From the NCBI GenBank assembly GCA_902609885.1, contig CACLTT010000006.1, forward strand, positions 70,802 through 113,027: DNA of 42,226 nt. The letters run 5' to 3'. The translations under genes were made by a program, and so were the position numbers. Numbering within the stretch: the first letter of the stretch is position 1; every line of letters begins with the position of its first letter. Of the stretch, positions 34,726-42,226 are shown in pieces. The notes under the pieces are model-generated. The model ran no database searches. It was not told the origin of the DNA and saw nothing but the letters and a program-made list of their open reading frames with translations. Source of the DNA: an uncultured Candidatus Hydrogenedens sp. (GTDB lineage Bacteria > Desulfobacterota_D > UBA1144).

Positions 34726-35769
34726 ATGATTGTAAAAATACTATTTTTATTTTGTATGATATTCATTAATATTGCTTTTGCTGATAATGGCACAGGTTTT
34801 TTGGTATCTGCAACCAAAATCAAAGATTTTAAAAGCGCTATTATATCAATTGAAGGAAATGCAAATGCGATTAATGATACAATCCTGAGCTCAGAAGTTG
34901 TTGGAGTAGTTTTAAAAATAAACAAAAATGAAGGTGAAAAAGTAAAAAAGAATGAAGTTATCGCAAAAATAGATAATTCAAAATACCTAGCAATTTACAA
35001 AAGTTCACAAGAGAAACTTTTTTCTCTAGAATCAGAATTAAAAAAATCAAGTTTAAAGCTAAAAAGATTTAATACTCTATTAGACAAAGAGGTTATATCA
35101 AGCCAAGAATATGAAGAAGTTTTATATAACCATAATTCAGTATTATCAAATTTTAACTCTCAATTGGAAATTATGAAATTTAATAAAATAAATTTAGATA
35201 AATGTAATATCAAAGCAAAATTTGATGGAATTATAAGTAAAAAATTTTTAAAATTGGGTCAGTATATAGATGAAGGTGATAACTTATTTGAAATTATTGA
35301 TAGTGATAAATTAGAAATCCACCTGTACATTCCTAAATCATATTTTTCATTAATCAACATAAATGACGAAGTCGAAATCATTTTTAGAGATGAAAATAAA
35401 ATCAATGCAAAAATCTCTAATATAGTTAATAAAATTGATAAGGCATATGGAACTTTTTTGGCTGTCGTTTATATTGATAATAACAGTCTTATAATTCCAG
35501 GTGAAGAAATAATGGCTAAAGTTAAAATGAAACCACCAGAAGGAACTTTTCTCATAAATAAAGATGCGGTTATTAATATGAGTGATAAAAAAATAGTTTA
35601 TAAAATAAAAGAGAAAAAAGTTTATCCTGTTGAAATTAAAATTTATGATTTATATGGAGATTATTTTATTGCAAAAGGACCAATAAAAAGGAATGATCTA
35701 ATTGTTTTGGATGGAAATGAAACATTAGCACCAAACCAAACAGTTAATATATCAAATATCATTAAATGA
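34726..35769 (+). CDS. RND efflux periplasmic adaptor (HlyD/MFP family)
   Basis: The 347-residue protein begins with a signal peptide (about 1-19, ending FINIAFA). It then shows the membrane fusion protein pattern: a lipoyl half (GVVLKINKNEGEKVKKNEVIAKID), a helical hairpin (about 85-140), the second lipoyl half (NIKAKFDGIISKKFLKLGQYIDEG) and beta-barrel and membrane-proximal domains. It would link the inner-membrane pump to an outer-membrane channel. It overlaps the pump gene by 4 nt. No outer-membrane factor gene is in the window, so a shared TolC-like channel elsewhere is expected. Confidence 0.92.
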   Translation: MIVKILFLFCMIFINIAFADNGTGFLVSATKIKDFKSAIISIEGNANAINDTILSSEVVGVVLKINKNEGEKVKKNEVIAKIDNSKYLAIYKSSQEKLFSLESELKKSSLKLKRFNTLLDKEVISSQEYEEVLYNHNSVLSNFNSQLEIMKFNKINLDKCNIKAKFDGIISKKFLKLGQYIDEGDNLFEIIDSDKLEIHLYIPKSYFSLININDEVEIIFRDENKINAKISNIVNKIDKAYGTFLAVVYIDNNSLIIPGEEIMAKVKMKPPEGTFLINKDAVINMSDKKIVYKIKEKKVYPVEIKIYDLYGDYFIAKGPIKRNDLIVLDGNETLAPNQTVNISNIIK

Positions 35770-38700
35770 ATTTTATAGATTATTCAGTAAAAAAATTTAT
35801 AACAATAATTTCTATTTTTTTACTGAGTTTTATCTTTGGGTTAATATCTCTTAATAATATTCCAATTCAACTAGTACCCACTGTTGAAAAGCCAAAAATT
35901 ACAATTAGAACAAATTGGCAAGGTGCAAGCCCCGAAGAAATTGAGCGAGAGATTGTAATTAGACAGGAAGACAAATTAAAAAGTCTTGAGGGTCTTGAGC
36001 TAATGGAAAGCACTTCTATAGAGAATCAAGCAACAATAAAACTCGAGTTAAAAGAAGGAAGAAACATAGAGTCCTCTCTTATACAGGTTTCAAATCTTTT
36101 AGCACAAGTAAAAGATATACCAGCCGATTCTGATAAACCTACTATAAAATCGATATCCTCTGACAGATCACCTATCGCATGGTTTATATTAAAGGCAAAA
36201 AAAGACAATACAAATATTTTTGAATATAAAGATTTTGCAGAAGATTATATCAAGACTAGATTTGAAAGAGTTCAAGGGGTTGGTGAATCTGGAATTAGAG
36301 GTGGTAGATTCAAAGAAGTACATGTTGATATTGACACTAATAAATTAGCTTTCTTAGAAGTTAGCTTACTAGATGTAGTTAACGAAATAAAAAGAAATAA
36401 TATAGATATAAGTTCGGGGGCAATCGAAGAAGGAAAAAGAAAATATACTGCCAGAACAACAGGTGAGATAAAAAGTATCAACGATCTGAAAAAAATAATC
36501 ATCAAAGAAGAGAATAATAATTATATAAGTCTTGGCGATATATCAAAAATAAATATAGGATACGAGGATGAAAATTATATTGTTAGACACCTAGGTGAAA
36601 ATGCTATAGCTATAAATGTAATAAAAGAGACAGGCGCAAATACAAAAGAAGTTCATAAAGAGCTTATTTTGGCAATGAATGAACTTAATGATGGTCCATT
36701 AAAAAAAGAAAATTTAATTCTTACAAATGTTTATTCAGATACAACTTATATTGATGCATCAATTTCATCGGTTAAACAGAATCTTTTTTTAGGTGCATTA
36801 CTGGCAATAGTTGTCTTACTTTTTTTCTTAAAATCTATAAAAACAACTATAATAATAGCACTTGCAATACCTATTAGTACTGTAAGTTCTTTCATAATAT
36901 TTGAGTTTATGGGTAGAACATTAAATTTAATCAGTCTTGCTGGAATTAGTTTTGCAGTTGGTATGGTCGTTGATAATTCACTAGTTGTATTAGAAAATAT
37001 TTTTTCAAAATTTGAAAGTGGAGTTAGGGATCCTAAAAAAGCGGCAATAGAAGGTGCAAAAGAAGTTTCTGGGGCAATTCTAGCGAGCACAATGACAACA
37101 TTTGCTGTTTTTTTACCTATTTTATTTCTGACTTCAGAAATTGGACAATTATTTAAAGATATAGCTTTATCTATTTCAATATCCATAATAATAAGTTTTT
37201 TTGTTTCTTTAACTTTCATTCCAGGCTTAGCATCAAAAATATTAGATTATGATTCACTTTCGGATTTAGGAAGTAAGAAAAAGCTATTTACTAAATTTGA
37301 TAATATTGGGATATTTGTTAATCAAAAAATTAATTCATTCCTCAGTATTATTTTGGACAAATCACAAAATCTTTCAAAATTTTTAATAATAATATTATCC
37401 TCTACGTTATTGCTCTTTTTTCTAACTTTTCCAAAATTAGAATATTTACCTGAGGGAAATAGGAATCTGATAATTTCAGTTTTAATTCCCCCTCAAGGTT
37501 ACAATATAGATAAAATAAAAAAAATTGGTTCTAATGCAGAAAGCAAAATCAAAAAATTCTGGCAAAAAAACTATAAAGGTGAGGATAAAATTAAAAACTT
37601 TTTCTTTGTAGCAAGGCCAAAATCTGTTTTTATGGGGGCGGTTGCAGAAAATCCTAAGAATATAAAAAAACTAATTCCTATATTAAAAAATGCTGGAAAA
37701 GGTTTTCCGGGATTCATAACTGTTGTTAATCAGTCTAGCCTATTCAGTAGATCAATAGGTGAAAGAAGAGCTATAGATATAGATATTAAAGGTAAAAATT
37801 ATGAAACAATTGTTGAACTATCGAGAAATATTTTTATTCAACTCCGTGATGATTTTCCAGAATACCAAATAAGACCAAAGCCTAGCCTAAGCAATTCAAA
37901 TCCGGAAATCATTATACGACCAAAAAATTTGAAATTGAATCAAGTTGGTATGACAGCGGATGAACTAGGTTTAATTACAAATATAATTTTAGATGGGGCT
38001 CGTGTAAGTAAATATAATGATAATGGTAAAGAAATAGATATAAAATTAAGAGGAAATTCCCCAAAAAATATATCCTCAAATATGCTTAGTACTCGATTTA
38101 TATATAATAAGAATAAATTTTTTCCTCTGAGCTTTATATCTGATATATCTATAATAAATTCTCCTCAGCAGATAAATCATGTTGAGCGTGATAGAACTAT
38201 AAAATTACAGGTATCGCCTGATGAAAAATCAAATATTGAAGATGCTTTAAATCTAATCAGAAAATCAATTAATACTGAATATATAAACAAATTCATAATT
38301 GATAATAATATTGAAATAAATTTAAGAGGTATTGCTGGCAAGCTTGAAGAAGCCAAATCCTCATTATCGAGAAATTTCATTTATGCACTATTAATCAGTT
38401 TTTTCTTATTAAGCTCTTTATTTCAAAGTTTTATATATCCATTAATTGTTCTGACTATTGTTCCTTTATCATCATTAGCAGGAATTTATGGTCTAAAAAT
38501 TATGAATATATTTTCTTATGAGCCTCTAAATATGCTATCAATGTTGGGGTTCATTATTTTACTTGGAATAGTTGTGAATAATTCAATATTGATTGTTTAC
38601 AAATCACTAAATAATATTCGTGAAGGCCTTAACCCGATAGATTCTGTAAAATTTGCAGTACAAAAAAGAATAAGGCCAATATTCATGACCACTTTGACAA

Positions 38701-38867
38701 CATCTTTTGGCCTACTTCCATTAGCCATTATTCCTGGTGCAGGTGCTGAACTTTATAGAGGCTTAGCTGTTGTGATTCTTTCGGGGTTATTAATATCAAC
38801 AATTTTCACACTTTTTATAACACCAATGGCAATTATTGTAATAAATCGATTTTTCAAAATAAAATAA
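35766..38867 (+). CDS. RND efflux permease (AcrB/MexB superfamily)
   Basis: The 1033-residue pump has the typical duplicated layout: helix 1, a large periplasmic loop (about 35-330), helices 2-6, helix 7, a second loop (about 560-850) and helices 8-12. GASPEEIEREI near the N-terminus matches the family. In helix 4 the motif is GMVVDNSLVVLEN with Asp403 and Asn404, where AcrB has Asp407-Asp408. In helix 10 the sequence is GIVVNNSILIVYKS with Asn938 at the position of AcrB Lys940. Such VDN/VNN pumps are common outside the enterobacterial AcrB group, so it is expected to be active with another proton relay. The substrate is unknown. It is translated with the adaptor. Confidence 0.94.
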   Translation: MNFIDYSVKKFITIISIFLLSFIFGLISLNNIPIQLVPTVEKPKITIRTNWQGASPEEIEREIVIRQEDKLKSLEGLELMESTSIENQATIKLELKEGRNIESSLIQVSNLLAQVKDIPADSDKPTIKSISSDRSPIAWFILKAKKDNTNIFEYKDFAEDYIKTRFERVQGVGESGIRGGRFKEVHVDIDTNKLAFLEVSLLDVVNEIKRNNIDISSGAIEEGKRKYTARTTGEIKSINDLKKIIIKEENNNYISLGDISKINIGYEDENYIVRHLGENAIAINVIKETGANTKEVHKELILAMNELNDGPLKKENLILTNVYSDTTYIDASISSVKQNLFLGALLAIVVLLFFLKSIKTTIIIALAIPISTVSSFIIFEFMGRTLNLISLAGISFAVGMVVDNSLVVLENIFSKFESGVRDPKKAAIEGAKEVSGAILASTMTTFAVFLPILFLTSEIGQLFKDIALSISISIIISFFVSLTFIPGLASKILDYDSLSDLGSKKKLFTKFDNIGIFVNQKINSFLSIILDKSQNLSKFLIIILSSTLLLFFLTFPKLEYLPEGNRNLIISVLIPPQGYNIDKIKKIGSNAESKIKKFWQKNYKGEDKIKNFFFVARPKSVFMGAVAENPKNIKKLIPILKNAGKGFPGFITVVNQSSLFSRSIGERRAIDIDIKGKNYETIVELSRNIFIQLRDDFPEYQIRPKPSLSNSNPEIIIRPKNLKLNQVGMTADELGLITNIILDGARVSKYNDNGKEIDIKLRGNSPKNISSNMLSTRFIYNKNKFFPLSFISDISIINSPQQINHVERDRTIKLQVSPDEKSNIEDALNLIRKSINTEYINKFIIDNNIEINLRGIAGKLEEAKSSLSRNFIYALLISFFLLSSLFQSFIYPLIVLTIVPLSSLAGIYGLKIMNIFSYEPLNMLSMLGFIILLGIVVNNSILIVYKSLNNIREGLNPIDSVKFAVQKRIRPIFMTTLTTSFGLLPLAIIPGAGAELYRGLAVVILSGLLISTIFTLFITPMAIIVINRFFKIK

Positions 38868-38874
38868 ACTCTTA

Positions 38875-39468
38875 TTATTCTAGTAAGGCTGTCGCAATAT
38901 TACCAACTATCCAATCTGAAACAGAGTAATCATTTCTGATACCTAAATCATTAAAACTCAATGGAACAGGAGTTGATTCACTGCAATCCTCATCATAATT
39001 TATAACTAATTCACGATTTAAATGAACAACTTTTTCAGCTTTATATATTTTAATTCCAATATCAGTTTTATATGAATTTTTCTTACAATACATCCAAGTA
39101 TTGTAATAGTCTAAACATTTAAATTTTTTAAAATCAAAATCAATACATTTATCATAATTATATGATCTTGGGGCACTTTCTGTAAATCTATTATTAACTT
39201 GTATTTCTGCAACCATATCAAATTTTCTAGATATGCCTTGATTTATAAAATTAAACTCCACATCTGGCATTGCATCTTTAAAGATGCTAAATATATAAGG
39301 CTCAAGCCTGCTATTATCACCATCTGACATAAGAATATCTATTTCACCTTCTAGAAAATTAATTAAACCTTTCTTTTCAACTAAAATTGATTCTTTTTGC
39401 GAAGAGCAAGAAGTTAATAGTAAAATAAATAAAACAAATACTACGTAAAGAGTTTTTGGCATAGCCAT
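38875..39468 (-). CDS. Hypothetical lipoprotein
   Basis: I do not recognise this 197-residue protein. It has a lipoprotein signal: a short basic start, a hydrophobic core (VVFVLFILLL) and lipobox LTSC followed by SSQKES, with the lipidated Cys at about 21. Starting at the second Met (MPKTL) is equally possible. The mature part has a mixed pattern with four further Cys (CIDFDFKKFKC, YC, DEDC), which could form disulfides. It stands alone on the minus strand between the RND pump (7 nt) and the next exported protein, from which it diverges with about 23 nt between the starts. Confidence 0.6.
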   Translation of the reverse strand: MAMPKTLYVVFVLFILLLTSCSSQKESILVEKKGLINFLEGEIDILMSDGDNSRLEPYIFSIFKDAMPDVEFNFINQGISRKFDMVAEIQVNNRFTESAPRSYNYDKCIDFDFKKFKCLDYYNTWMYCKKNSYKTDIGIKIYKAEKVVHLNRELVINYDEDCSESTPVPLSFNDLGIRNDYSVSDWIVGNIATALLE

Positions 39469-39491
39469 AATATGTGTATAATTATATAGTA

Positions 39492-40478
39492 ATGATTAAG
39501 AATTTATTAATTTTTTTTCTTATATTTTATTTAGGCGAAGTTGCCAATTCTAGAGAAATTGATATCAAATCATCTATAACTATGAGTTATGAACCTGGCT
39601 TTTTCTTTAAAAAGCCCAAATCAGAAGATGTTGATAAAGCCCTAGAAAAGATAAAAAAGAATATGTGGGAATCCTATACGTCAAATTTTAGCGATGCGAA
39701 AATGAAACAATATTTGATGGTTGAAGAGCAAATAAAACCTGAAATAGATAAGTTTTTTACTTCTTTAAGCGTAGTGGATATTGACGTAAAAAGTGAATTG
39801 AAAACATTTACTGTTTATGCACGTGCAAAAATAAATGATACCGCAGTTAATGCTAGACTTAGTTTTCTATCAAAAGCTGGTCAGACATCTACTGGGGACG
39901 GAAGCCCTTTTACTTTCATATTTATTGCAAAGCAAGCAGAAAAAGTTCTTGATTTTAAGGATCTAGATAGTTTTGATTTACAGGAAAGAAAGTCATCCGA
40001 TTATAAATATGCTTCATCCAACTCAACTTTTATAGACACTTCAATTACAAATATTTTGTCAACTGCAGGTTTTGAAGTTGTTTCTTATTCTGATGTTATA
40101 ATTCAGTGCGGCGGCCCAACTTTTGAGGAAATAGAAAACAGTATTAACCAAGGGGATAAAATAAGTCCAATTATAAGAAAAGGCATAATAGAAGCTTGCA
40201 CAAAATGTGATATAGATTATTTAGCAATAGGAATACTCGATATTGGAATTAAATCTAAAGTTGATACCAATCAAAATAGAGAGATTAGCGTTTCTGTTCA
40301 AAGCCAAGTTTGGAATATACAAGATAAATTACCGAGAGTAATTGCAGCAGTAGGGCCTATTACTTCTGATGCAAATGAAAAAGATGATATTACAACTATA
40401 AAAAAAGCTTTAGTTGATCCTGCTGATTCAGTAGCAAGAAATATTGTAGATCAATTAAACGCAAAAAATATAAATTAA
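39492..40478 (+). CDS. Hypothetical exported protein
   Basis: Unrecognised 328-residue protein starting at the ATG at 39492 (an in-frame GTG at 39474 would add six residues before the signal). A signal peptide (about 1-20; MIKNLLIFFLIFYLGEVANS) precedes a mixed alpha/beta body. The pattern is of an exported soluble protein. The C-terminal ~130 residues (DYLAIGILDIGIKSK, SVSVQSQVWNIQDKLPRVIAAVGP, DSVARNIVDQLN) are loosely like the repeated alpha/beta domains seen in FlgT/LpoB/CsgG-type periplasmic proteins, which I treat as a weak hint only. Three Cys (CGG, CTKC) are in the second half. The small lipoprotein gene follows after a Shine-Dalgarno that overlaps this gene's stop codon. Confidence 0.65.
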   Translation: MIKNLLIFFLIFYLGEVANSREIDIKSSITMSYEPGFFFKKPKSEDVDKALEKIKKNMWESYTSNFSDAKMKQYLMVEEQIKPEIDKFFTSLSVVDIDVKSELKTFTVYARAKINDTAVNARLSFLSKAGQTSTGDGSPFTFIFIAKQAEKVLDFKDLDSFDLQERKSSDYKYASSNSTFIDTSITNILSTAGFEVVSYSDVIIQCGGPTFEEIENSINQGDKISPIIRKGIIEACTKCDIDYLAIGILDIGIKSKVDTNQNREISVSVQSQVWNIQDKLPRVIAAVGPITSDANEKDDITTIKKALVDPADSVARNIVDQLNAKNIN

Positions 40479-40513
40479 GGAGTATTAAATATAAAATGAA
40501 AGGAGTTTTAAAT

Positions 40514-40828
40514 ATGAATGATATGAGAAAAGGAATGTTGTTATTTATTTTAATGTTCATTTTATTATTTTTAGTAAGCTGCTCTTCTTCAGAAGATGAA
40601 CTAGCTAAAGATAAAAATGTTTTAGAGGATAAAATTGGTGAGTGTGATAAAGAAGTTAAAATCATTAAAGCATATGGTGATGATATCAGAATAAGGTACC
40701 CTCTTGGTCAAGAATCTGAAGCAGATGAAGTTGCTAGAGAATGGTGTGACGTAAATGGAAAAGTATCTGTAAAAGGGGTAGTTTCATGCCAAGGGTGTTG
40801 TTACACAAGTTACATGTGCAAGCAATAG
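40514..40828 (+). CDS. Small cysteine-rich lipoprotein, function unknown
   Basis: A 104-residue protein. The ATG at 40514 is chosen because AAAGGAG (40499-40505) precedes it by 8 nt. Another ATG at 40496 also has an AAGGAG (40477-40482), at a poorer distance. A lipoprotein signal (RKGMLLFILMFILLFLVSC) gives lipidation at Cys about 23. The mature part has a charged linker, then AREWCDVNGKVSV, a pattern I recall from small periplasmic proteins (E-x-x-x-x-A-x-x-x-C-x-x-x-G-K), and the Cys-dense end SCQGCCYTSYMCKQ. Cys could pair as disulfides or bind metal. It follows the hypothetical exported protein and probably shares its transcript. Confidence 0.65.
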   Translation: MNDMRKGMLLFILMFILLFLVSCSSSEDELAKDKNVLEDKIGECDKEVKIIKAYGDDIRIRYPLGQESEADEVAREWCDVNGKVSVKGVVSCQGCCYTSYMCKQ

Positions 40829-40879: not shown

Positions 40880-42079
40880 ATGAAATATGAAAATATATCT
40901 TATGCAAAAACTGTATACGGTAAAGCTGAAATAAAGGCTGTCGTAGATTGTCTAAACAAATCTACCCAAATGGGTGTTAATGCAAGGAATTTTGAATCTA
41001 AAATTGCGAAGCTCTTTGATAAGAAATATGGACTTTTTGTTAATTCAGGTTCATCAGCATTATTTCTTGGAATTGAATCTTTAGGTTTACCCTCAGGGAG
41101 CGAGGTAATAACACCTGCTTTAACTTTTAGTACAAGCGTTGGATGTTTGATTAAAAATAATCTTATTCCAGTTTTTGTTGATGTAGAGCCAGCCTCATTT
41201 TGTATTGATGCTAATAAAATTGAAGAAAAAATATCTCGAAGAACTAAGGCTATTCTAGCTCCAAACTTAATGGGAAATCTATGTGATTGGAAAGCAATTA
41301 GAAAAATTGCTAATAAATATAAATTGCTTGTGATAGAGGATTCAGCAGATACATTAGGTGCAAAATTGAATGGTAAATCCTCAGGATATTATTCTGATAT
41401 GTCAATTACAAGTTTTTATGGATCACATATAATTAATTGTGCGGGAAATGGAGGAGCTCTAACTTTAAACAATAAAAAATTTTTAAATAAAGCAAAACTT
41501 TTGCGCTCTTGGGGTAGAAGCTCATCTTTATTTGATGAAAAAAGTGAAGCTATTGAAAACAGATTCAATATCAGGTTAGGAAATATAGATTATGATGCCA
41601 AATTTGTATTTGAAACAATTGGATACAATGTAGAAGGGAGTGAAGTTGGAGCTGCTTTTGGCTTGACTCAACTTAAAAGCCTCAAAAAAAATATTCAAAT
41701 TCGACAAAGTAATTTCAAAAAACAATATAAGTTTTTCAATAAACATAAAGACTATTTTACTAATCCGGAAGAAATTAAAAATTCTAATACAGCATGGCTG
41801 GCTTATCCCATCCTGATAAATAAGCATGCTCCTTTTTGTAGAAAAGATTTTCAAATATATTTAGAAAAAAAAAATATTCAAACAAGAGTTGTTTTTACAG
41901 GAAATATTTTAAGGCAGCCCATGATGAAAAATCAAAAATATATTGGCAAATTAAGTGAGCTTAAAAATGCGGATAATGTTATGAAAAGAGGAGTTTTATT
42001 GCCAGTTCATCATGGTATGACTACTAAAATGTTTGCTAGGCTTCATAATACGATCGAAGATTTCTTAAAGACTTATTAG
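40880..42079 (+). CDS. DegT/DnrJ/EryC1-fold PLP enzyme, predicted sugar-nucleotide 3-dehydratase (RfbH/ColD-like)
   Basis: The 399-residue protein has the DegT aminotransferase fold: SGSSALFLGI (57-66), IPVFVDVEP, NLMGNLCDW, VIEDSADTLGA and the GYNVEGSEVGAAFGLTQL signature. Where aminotransferases have the PLP-binding Lys, SFYGSHIIN carries His183. That substitution marks the PLP/PMP-dependent dehydratases that remove the sugar 3-OH, ColD and RfbH/DdhC. RfbH/DdhC carry a [2Fe-2S] cluster with four Cys after WGRD; here the segment after SWGRSSSLFDE has none, as in ColD. FTGNILRQPMM and the C-terminal pattern are RfbH/ColD-like. It faces a partial gene resembling CDP-glucose 4,6-dehydratase, with a 4-nt overlap. 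Substrate (CDP- or GDP-4-keto sugar) is open. It may instead be an aminotransferase relative that uses PMP. Confidence 0.85.
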   Translation: MKYENISYAKTVYGKAEIKAVVDCLNKSTQMGVNARNFESKIAKLFDKKYGLFVNSGSSALFLGIESLGLPSGSEVITPALTFSTSVGCLIKNNLIPVFVDVEPASFCIDANKIEEKISRRTKAILAPNLMGNLCDWKAIRKIANKYKLLVIEDSADTLGAKLNGKSSGYYSDMSITSFYGSHIINCAGNGGALTLNNKKFLNKAKLLRSWGRSSSLFDEKSEAIENRFNIRLGNIDYDAKFVFETIGYNVEGSEVGAAFGLTQLKSLKKNIQIRQSNFKKQYKFFNKHKDYFTNPEEIKNSNTAWLAYPILINKHAPFCRKDFQIYLEKKNIQTRVVFTGNILRQPMMKNQKYIGKLSELKNADNVMKRGVLLPVHHGMTTKMFARLHNTIEDFLKTY

Positions 42080-42226
42080 TTGAAATATTCTTTTATATCA
42101 TCGAGAGTCTTTTTAAAAATATCATCTTTTTTTATATATGAATTATACCAATCAGCGGTCTTACTTAATGTTTGGGATATTGTAAATTTTGGTCTCCACA
42201 TTAAATCTTTTTTGGCTTTACTAGAA
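42076..42226 (-). CDS. rfbG: CDP-glucose 4,6-dehydratase-like protein (partial, C-terminal end only)
   Basis: The last 49 codons and the TAA stop of a minus-strand gene enter from the right edge. The residues SSKAKKDLMWRPKF, then LSKTADWYNSY and TLDDIKEYFN match the C-terminal pattern of RfbG/CDP-glucose 4,6-dehydratase (D-SSKA-LLGW-P, TVEWY, QI-EY), an NAD-dependent SDR-fold sugar enzyme. The N-terminal NAD-binding part and the catalytic residues are outside the window, so the call is tentative. Its stop overlaps the end of the DegT-fold gene by 4 nt in convergent orientation. The pairing fits a CDP-4-keto-6-deoxyglucose route. Confidence 0.68.
   Translation of the reverse strand, partial: SSKAKKDLMWRPKFTISQTLSKTADWYNSYIKKDDIFKKTLDDIKEYFN

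Follow-up and report, generated by a model that had tools for sequence, protein, structure and literature searches.

A predicted Fe-S-free, E1/RfbH-like CDP-4-keto-6-deoxyglucose 3-dehydratase from an uncultured Candidatus Hydrogenedens sp. and mostly marine bacteria

The window analysed here, a stretch of DNA of 42,226 nucleotides, lies at the end of contig C6, of which it forms the final 42 kb, in the genome (0.98 Mb, 94.6% complete) of an uncultured Candidatus Hydrogenedens sp., referred to as G000; G003 denotes a genome of the same genus and G010 one of the same bacterial family. Towards the contig end, the forward strand encodes a 399-aa protein (40880–42079) that matched the Pfam family DegT_DnrJ_EryC1 (E 5e-81) and is predicted from Pfam, PDB and NCBIfam matches, a phylogenetic tree and fold matches to be a Fe-S-free E1/RfbH-like CDP-4-keto-6-deoxyglucose 3-dehydratase; the clade containing this protein is named E1x here. 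Convergent with it, the stop codons of both genes overlapping, lies the 3′ end of a reverse-strand gene (42076–42225) which had been taken from the sequence alone for a CDP-glucose 4,6-dehydratase (rfbG). This was borne out by TIGR02622 being the best family for the 49 aa available (E 1.9e-8), the remainder of the gene lying outside this assembly beyond the contig end at position 42226, and by the complete ortholog in G003 (L046:13588-14637), which scored 415.8 bits with TIGR02622 (cut-off 278) and adjoins an rfbF gene (TIGR02623, 361 bits, cut-off 300). The E1x ortholog of G003 is 80% identical to the window protein and shows the same convergent layout; a search of the rest of G000 gave no rfbF. 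To the left, a gene for an RND (AcrB-type) pump (35766–38867, forward strand) provides context: in G000, G003 and G010 alike it bounds the locus on this side. The interval between pump and E1x in the window (38875–40828) holds three ORFs with no Pfam match over cut-off, two of them with lipoprotein-like N-termini; in G003 and G010 the pump adjoins the E1 gene.

The PLP lysine site of the window protein is occupied by His183 (codon CAT, 41426–41428), the motif reading SFYGSH as against SFYxxK in aminotransferases, and the alignment showed His in place of the Schiff-base lysine in every E1x member, in agreement with the sequence-only reading, which had assigned the protein to the 3-dehydratase type on this replacement. 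The preceding residue is Ser182 (codons of the pair, 41423–41428, forward strand), as in the Ser187-His188 pair of ColD; Ser was aligned at this position in 95% of E1x rows and all ColD rows, the residue being mostly Ala or Pro in Fe-S E1 and Ala in SpnQ. The title of PDB entry 3gr9 describes a ColD mutant (H188K S187N) in which this Ser-His pair is changed, and which reportedly becomes an aminotransferase. The absence of Fe-S cysteines, also claimed earlier, held on alignment: the [2Fe-2S] cysteine loop of E1, RDCYCAPGCDNTC, aligned gap-free with RSSSLFDEKSEAI of the window protein (codons 213–226; 41516–41557, forward strand), so that in the loop R213-SSSLFDEKSEA-I225 the four E1 Cys correspond to S215, L217, K221 and I225. 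No Cys was present in the cluster-loop region in any of the 38 rows of the E1x clade alignment, and the conservation of the cysteine-free loop and of the His across phyla excludes a chance origin.

Other residues of the active site point to E1. The alignment showed that D157, Y180 and H183 of E1x are the retained equivalents of E1 Asp194, Tyr217 and His220, positions said to have been altered in published retro-evolution work on E1, and that Trp211, Arg213, Tyr238 and Lys241 are common to E1x and E1, with ColD differing there (His/Trp for Trp211/Arg213, and also Glu for Asp157). The loop following the catalytic His reads AGNGG, one residue longer than the GEGG of E1, SpnQ and aminotransferases and unique to E1x; judging from this altered loop, cofactor handling could differ. 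From family membership, PMP would be the cofactor. An E1x subgroup from the Prochlorococcus family (L198–L201) carries SFYASHVITGAGFGG, with a single loop Cys (GWGRRSCLYGE), and is possibly an intermediate or a separate branch.

By score, predicted fold and tree, the window protein is placed nearer to the CDP-linked Fe-S E1/RfbH enzymes than to GDP-linked ColD. The best PDB matches were the E1 structures 3bcx (208 bits) and 3bb8 (205 bits), ColD following at 139 bits; the top NCBIfam model was NF011936 (RfbH), with 312 bits, under its equivalog cut-off of 423 bits, and a runner-up model at 199. E1 dehydrase also gave the best Foldseek matches of the AlphaFold model (pLDDT 93.8), a viral structure library yielding distant PLP enzymes only. 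In trees built after removal of the cysteine-loop columns, E1x formed a single clade (support 100/99), sister to Fe-S E1 (100/96), with ColD, SpnQ-type enzymes and aminotransferases outside. The sequence-only reading had likened the protein to ColD; it resembles ColD in one catalytic position, the Ser before the His, but is not a ColD by these measures, though forcing E1x with ColD cost 7 log units and this grouping was not rejected (AU p 0.31).

Compared with E1/RfbH/DdhC/AscC (NF011936; 3bb8, 3bcx), with which it shares the fold, the catalytic His and the Asp/Tyr/His dehydratase residues at 30–36% identity, E1x has no [2Fe-2S] cysteines and a shorter N-terminus. Like ColD/WbdK (2gms, 2r0t, 3b8x) it is a DegT-fold PMP dehydratase, by prediction, without Fe-S, but its genomic context is CDP rather than GDP. 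SpnQ, the dTDP-4-keto-2,6-dideoxyglucose 3-dehydrase, likewise has His for Lys and catalyses the C3 deoxygenation predicted for E1x, but it acts on a dTDP sugar, has Fe-S cysteines and lies farther away in the tree. The characterised 3-dehydratases named in a 2022 review (PMC8987622) are these three alone, the Fe-S enzymes E1 (CDP) and SpnQ (dTDP) and the Fe-S-free ColD (GDP), and no published Fe-S-free CDP-linked E1-type 3-dehydratase was found in the open-licence literature, so that the known group of such enzymes to which the protein might have belonged, according to the earlier reading, did not come to light. Two further observations concern cyanobacteria and one of their phages. Loci L184–L186 of the Prochlorococcus family and the Synechococcus phage S-H68 (L212:2905-4200) encode another 3-dehydratase subtype (SFYPAHHI.TIEGG), whose cellular members retain loop cysteines (CYCVG...VCGKRF) at longer spacing, and the canonical Fe-S RfbH of the Synechococcus family (L205–L211) is encoded by ORFs of ~500–530 aa, ~70 aa beyond the usual RfbH.

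The gene order at the locus ties E1x to the CDP pathway. G010 shows the order RND pump, Fe-S RfbH, convergent rfbG-rfbF, and G003, like the cut locus of G000, shows RND pump, E1x, convergent rfbG-rfbF. Between G003 and G010, identity is 82% for rfbF and 59% for rfbG, against ~34% for the E1 genes (E1x vs RfbH), the rfbF of both sharing ~64% identity with that of other relatives. E1x and canonical Fe-S RfbH are therefore exchanged in place within one bacterial family, and exchange beside an 82%-identical rfbF argues that the same upstream enzymes feed both kinds of dehydratase, making it the strongest pointer to the CDP pathway. More widely, rfbF and rfbG were each present in 37 of ~53 E1x neighbourhoods, usually in the order rfbF-rfbG-E1x, with rfbG mostly directly upstream of E1x and the ends overlapping or nearly so. 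TIGR02622 was matched over cut-off in 34/38 genomes (29/32 E1x genomes plus 5/6 in the window's family, the sixth being G000, where the gene is cut) and in 5/95 relatives without E1x (Fisher p 6e-22, the genomes being non-independent). No rfbG was detected in three E1x genomes, two of which are the deepest branches, from candidate phyla.

Of the two alternatives raised from the sequence alone, that of a CDP-pathway enzyme free of Fe-S is favoured by the rfbG/rfbF coupling and the RfbH slot exchange; the other, that the partner gene makes a GDP sugar, is disfavoured by the lack of a GDP-mannose 4,6-dehydratase (gmd) in G000 and G003. A GDP pathway for the window protein was rejected on this ground, its consistent neighbours being CDP genes. 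It is accordingly very improbable that E1x is a true ColD acting on GDP-4-keto-6-deoxymannose, with an incidental link to rfbF and rfbG: the lack of Fe-S, the Ser-His pair and the AU result would fit, as would the presence of gmd somewhere in 23/37 E1x genomes, but gmd was also absent from the Ensifer, Aquimarina and SAR116 E1x genomes, and rfbF and rfbG are neighbours across phyla. What a GDP context looks like is exemplified by Synechococcus phage S-CAM7 (L213:1061-4119), where gmd and fcl (GDP-fucose synthetase) lie beside the gene of a DegT protein whose annotation reads CDP-4-keto-6-deoxyglucose dehydrase; this protein is more likely of the GDP-linked ColD type.

No E3 partner was seen for E1x. 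None of the 14 genomes of the window's family showed PF00970, the domain of E3-like reductases, and it was absent from 20/32 E1x genomes. The missing reductase was rejected as proof of a Fe-S-free route, since the 14 genomes include G006 and G010, which carry Fe-S RfbH. In one rival reading, E1x keeps C3 deoxygenation but has its PMP-glucoseen reduced directly by an external reductase or by ferredoxin/flavodoxin, with no cluster of its own. Most of these genomes encode small ferredoxins, and SpnQ runs on general ferredoxin/flavodoxin systems rather than E3 (PMC8987622); we nevertheless regard direct reduction as unlikely, as the four Cys through which electrons enter E1 and SpnQ are gone in every E1x member, no recurrent reductase occurs in E1x neighbourhoods and the Ser-His pair is that of ColD.

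Taken together, the E1 scaffold, the ColD-like catalytic pair and the missing cluster most simply suggest a CDP-linked, ColD-like 3-dehydratase. We put at roughly two in three the probability that E1x is a Fe-S-free CDP-4-keto-6-deoxyglucose 3-dehydratase with ColD-like product release, in which glutamate regenerates PMP. The first half of the reaction is common to E1, SpnQ and ColD, consisting of a PMP Schiff base, His-catalysed loss of the C3-OH and a 3,4-hexoseen; E1 then receives electrons from E3 via its [2Fe-2S] cluster, whereas in ColD the intermediate is hydrolysed and PMP is regenerated by glutamate (PMC8987622). With the family, the absent cluster ligands, the catalytic His, the CDP-pathway coupling and the exchange with Fe-S RfbH computed, we infer the reaction of E1x, glutamate as its donor and its end products as follows. 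RfbF would form CDP-glucose and RfbG would convert it to CDP-4-keto-6-deoxyglucose, with which the PMP of E1x would form a Schiff base at C4. Abstraction of a proton by His183 and departure of the C3-OH would give the 3,4-hexoseen. Lacking a [2Fe-2S] cluster, E1x would leave the E1/E3 radical reduction unused, and the intermediate would be hydrolysed as in ColD to PLP and an enamine, which would tautomerise and lose ammonia to yield CDP-4-keto-3,6-dideoxyglucose. Glutamate would then convert PLP back to PMP, a hydrolytic, glutamate-driven cycle that E1x likely has in common with ColD by analogy. Locus-specific SDR reductases, an RmlC-type epimerase, ThDP enzymes (YerE-like or split-transketolase) and a C-methyltransferase may finally turn the product into differing 3,6-dideoxy or branched surface sugars.

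The genes following E1x vary in kind, comprising glycosyltransferases, SDRs, an RmlC-type 3,5-epimerase, a PF08484 C-methyltransferase, split transketolase and acetolactate-synthase-like (AHAS-like) ThDP enzymes, an AHAS-like gene with an SDR lying ~5 kb from E1x in G003. Enzymes of types known to work on 4-keto-3,6-dideoxy or branched sugars (PMC12247030) are common among them, which speaks for the main reading. Database names for E1x genes are mostly "aminotransferase", the fold is that of DegT, and SpnQ without a reductase shows aminotransferase activity (PMC8987622), so that E1x might retain the nitrogen and make a CDP-4-amino-3,4,6-trideoxy or 4-amino-4,6-dideoxy sugar. This appears quite improbable given that the lysine of ordinary transamination is His in all E1x, that the E1 dehydratase residues are retained and that the downstream RmlC-type epimerase, ThDP branching enzymes and C-methyltransferase require a ketone. 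Some other PMP reaction on CDP-4-keto-6-deoxyglucose that causes no net deoxygenation, for example epimerisation at C3 or C5 or the priming of C3 for C-methylation, would suit the PF08484 C-methyltransferases directly after E1x in Roseibium, Palleronia and Ensifer as well as the unique loop following the His; it is rather improbable in view of the retained E1 residues and the in-place exchange with canonical RfbH, and we know of no precedent, which also counts against it. On the Roseibium (L171) and Palleronia (L172) plasmids, the rfbF-rfbG-E1x genes precede those for a sugar C-methyltransferase (matching PF08484 in L171), for an NAD(P)-dependent oxidoreductase and for a glycosyltransferase, cassettes that may lead to a C-methylated sugar.

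For the ketone product of the proposed 3-dehydratase, conversion to a branched surface sugar of the 3,6-dideoxy type is plausible. Branches of two or more carbons are attached to CDP-4-keto-3,6-dideoxyglucose by YerE-type ThDP enzymes, and a comparable role in miharamycin and amipurimycin has been proposed for split transketolases (PMC12247030). The likeness to YerE/ErwE (yersiniose, erwiniose) consists in this acceptor and in the AHAS-like or split-transketolase genes near many E1x genes; the differences are that deoxygenation in Yersinia is by Fe-S E1 and E3 and that the ThDP genes near E1x are mutually ~30–35% alike. A split transketolase (N and C halves, N being duplicated in some) adjoins E1x at L050:15620-18267, L048:16043-18597, L086, L088 and L090, and may be the enzyme that adds a two-carbon branch to the 4-keto sugar.

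Of the ~50 E1x loci collected, ~38 came from one GTDB genome scan; these belong to Prochlorococcus, Synechococcus, SAR86, SAR116, SAR11/Pelagibacter, Methylophilaceae, Bacteroidota (Flavobacteriales/Aquimarina, Roseivirga), Verrucomicrobia, Ensifer and two candidate phyla, the last forming the deepest branches. Plasmid copies occur in Roseibium, Labrenzia, Palleronia, Leisingera and Ensifer. As judged from its sequences, E1x is a widespread, mostly marine clade which would have lost the cluster or never had it, and the intermixing of phyla within its tree indicates horizontal transfer. E1x was also present on 11 IMG/VR contigs; on at least several of them there are, in addition, genes resembling UvsX and UvsY of T4-like phages. 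Among these contigs (L150–L160; for example L152:3495-8619) a tightly overlapping rfbF-rfbG-E1x-SDR cassette lies near the UvsX/UvsY-like recombination genes, and T4-like phages appear to carry a CDP-dideoxy sugar pathway of their own.

In 300 genomes of the Prochlorococcus/Synechococcus family, 42 scored as carrying canonical RfbH (seven of the sequences were read, all with cysteines), with a median genome size of 3.0 Mb, and 12 carried E1x, with a median of 1.7 Mb (Mann-Whitney p 8e-6, uncorrected for kinship). That E1x spares iron in the open ocean is a reasonable hypothesis, and stays one because soil Ensifer also carries it. We hold tentatively, at somewhat less than even odds, the wider proposal that E1x is a fourth 3-dehydratase class performing CDP-linked C3 deoxygenation on an E1 scaffold by the ionic, glutamate-driven ColD route, spread by horizontal gene transfer, including by T4-like phages, through iron-poor ocean plankton, where it would take the place of RfbH and spare iron.

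E1 is a textbook PMP/[2Fe-2S] radical enzyme, and the need for iron in E1 but not in ColD is an evolutionary puzzle. E1x offers a natural comparison to E1 within the same family and on the same predicted substrate without the cluster. Recombinant E1/E3 from two species failed to deoxygenate, for which dysfunctional Fe-S clusters were blamed (PMC7851689); a Fe-S-free, reductase-free enzyme, if confirmed, would open the synthesis of CDP-paratose, tyvelose and branched sugars. The "aminotransferase" names are corrected here for a gene found in bacteria abundant in the sea, where surface sugars serve as phage receptors, and in some of the viruses of these bacteria; on the sequence data, E1x probably yields the same rare cell-surface sugars as the Fe-S pathway without iron or a partner reductase.
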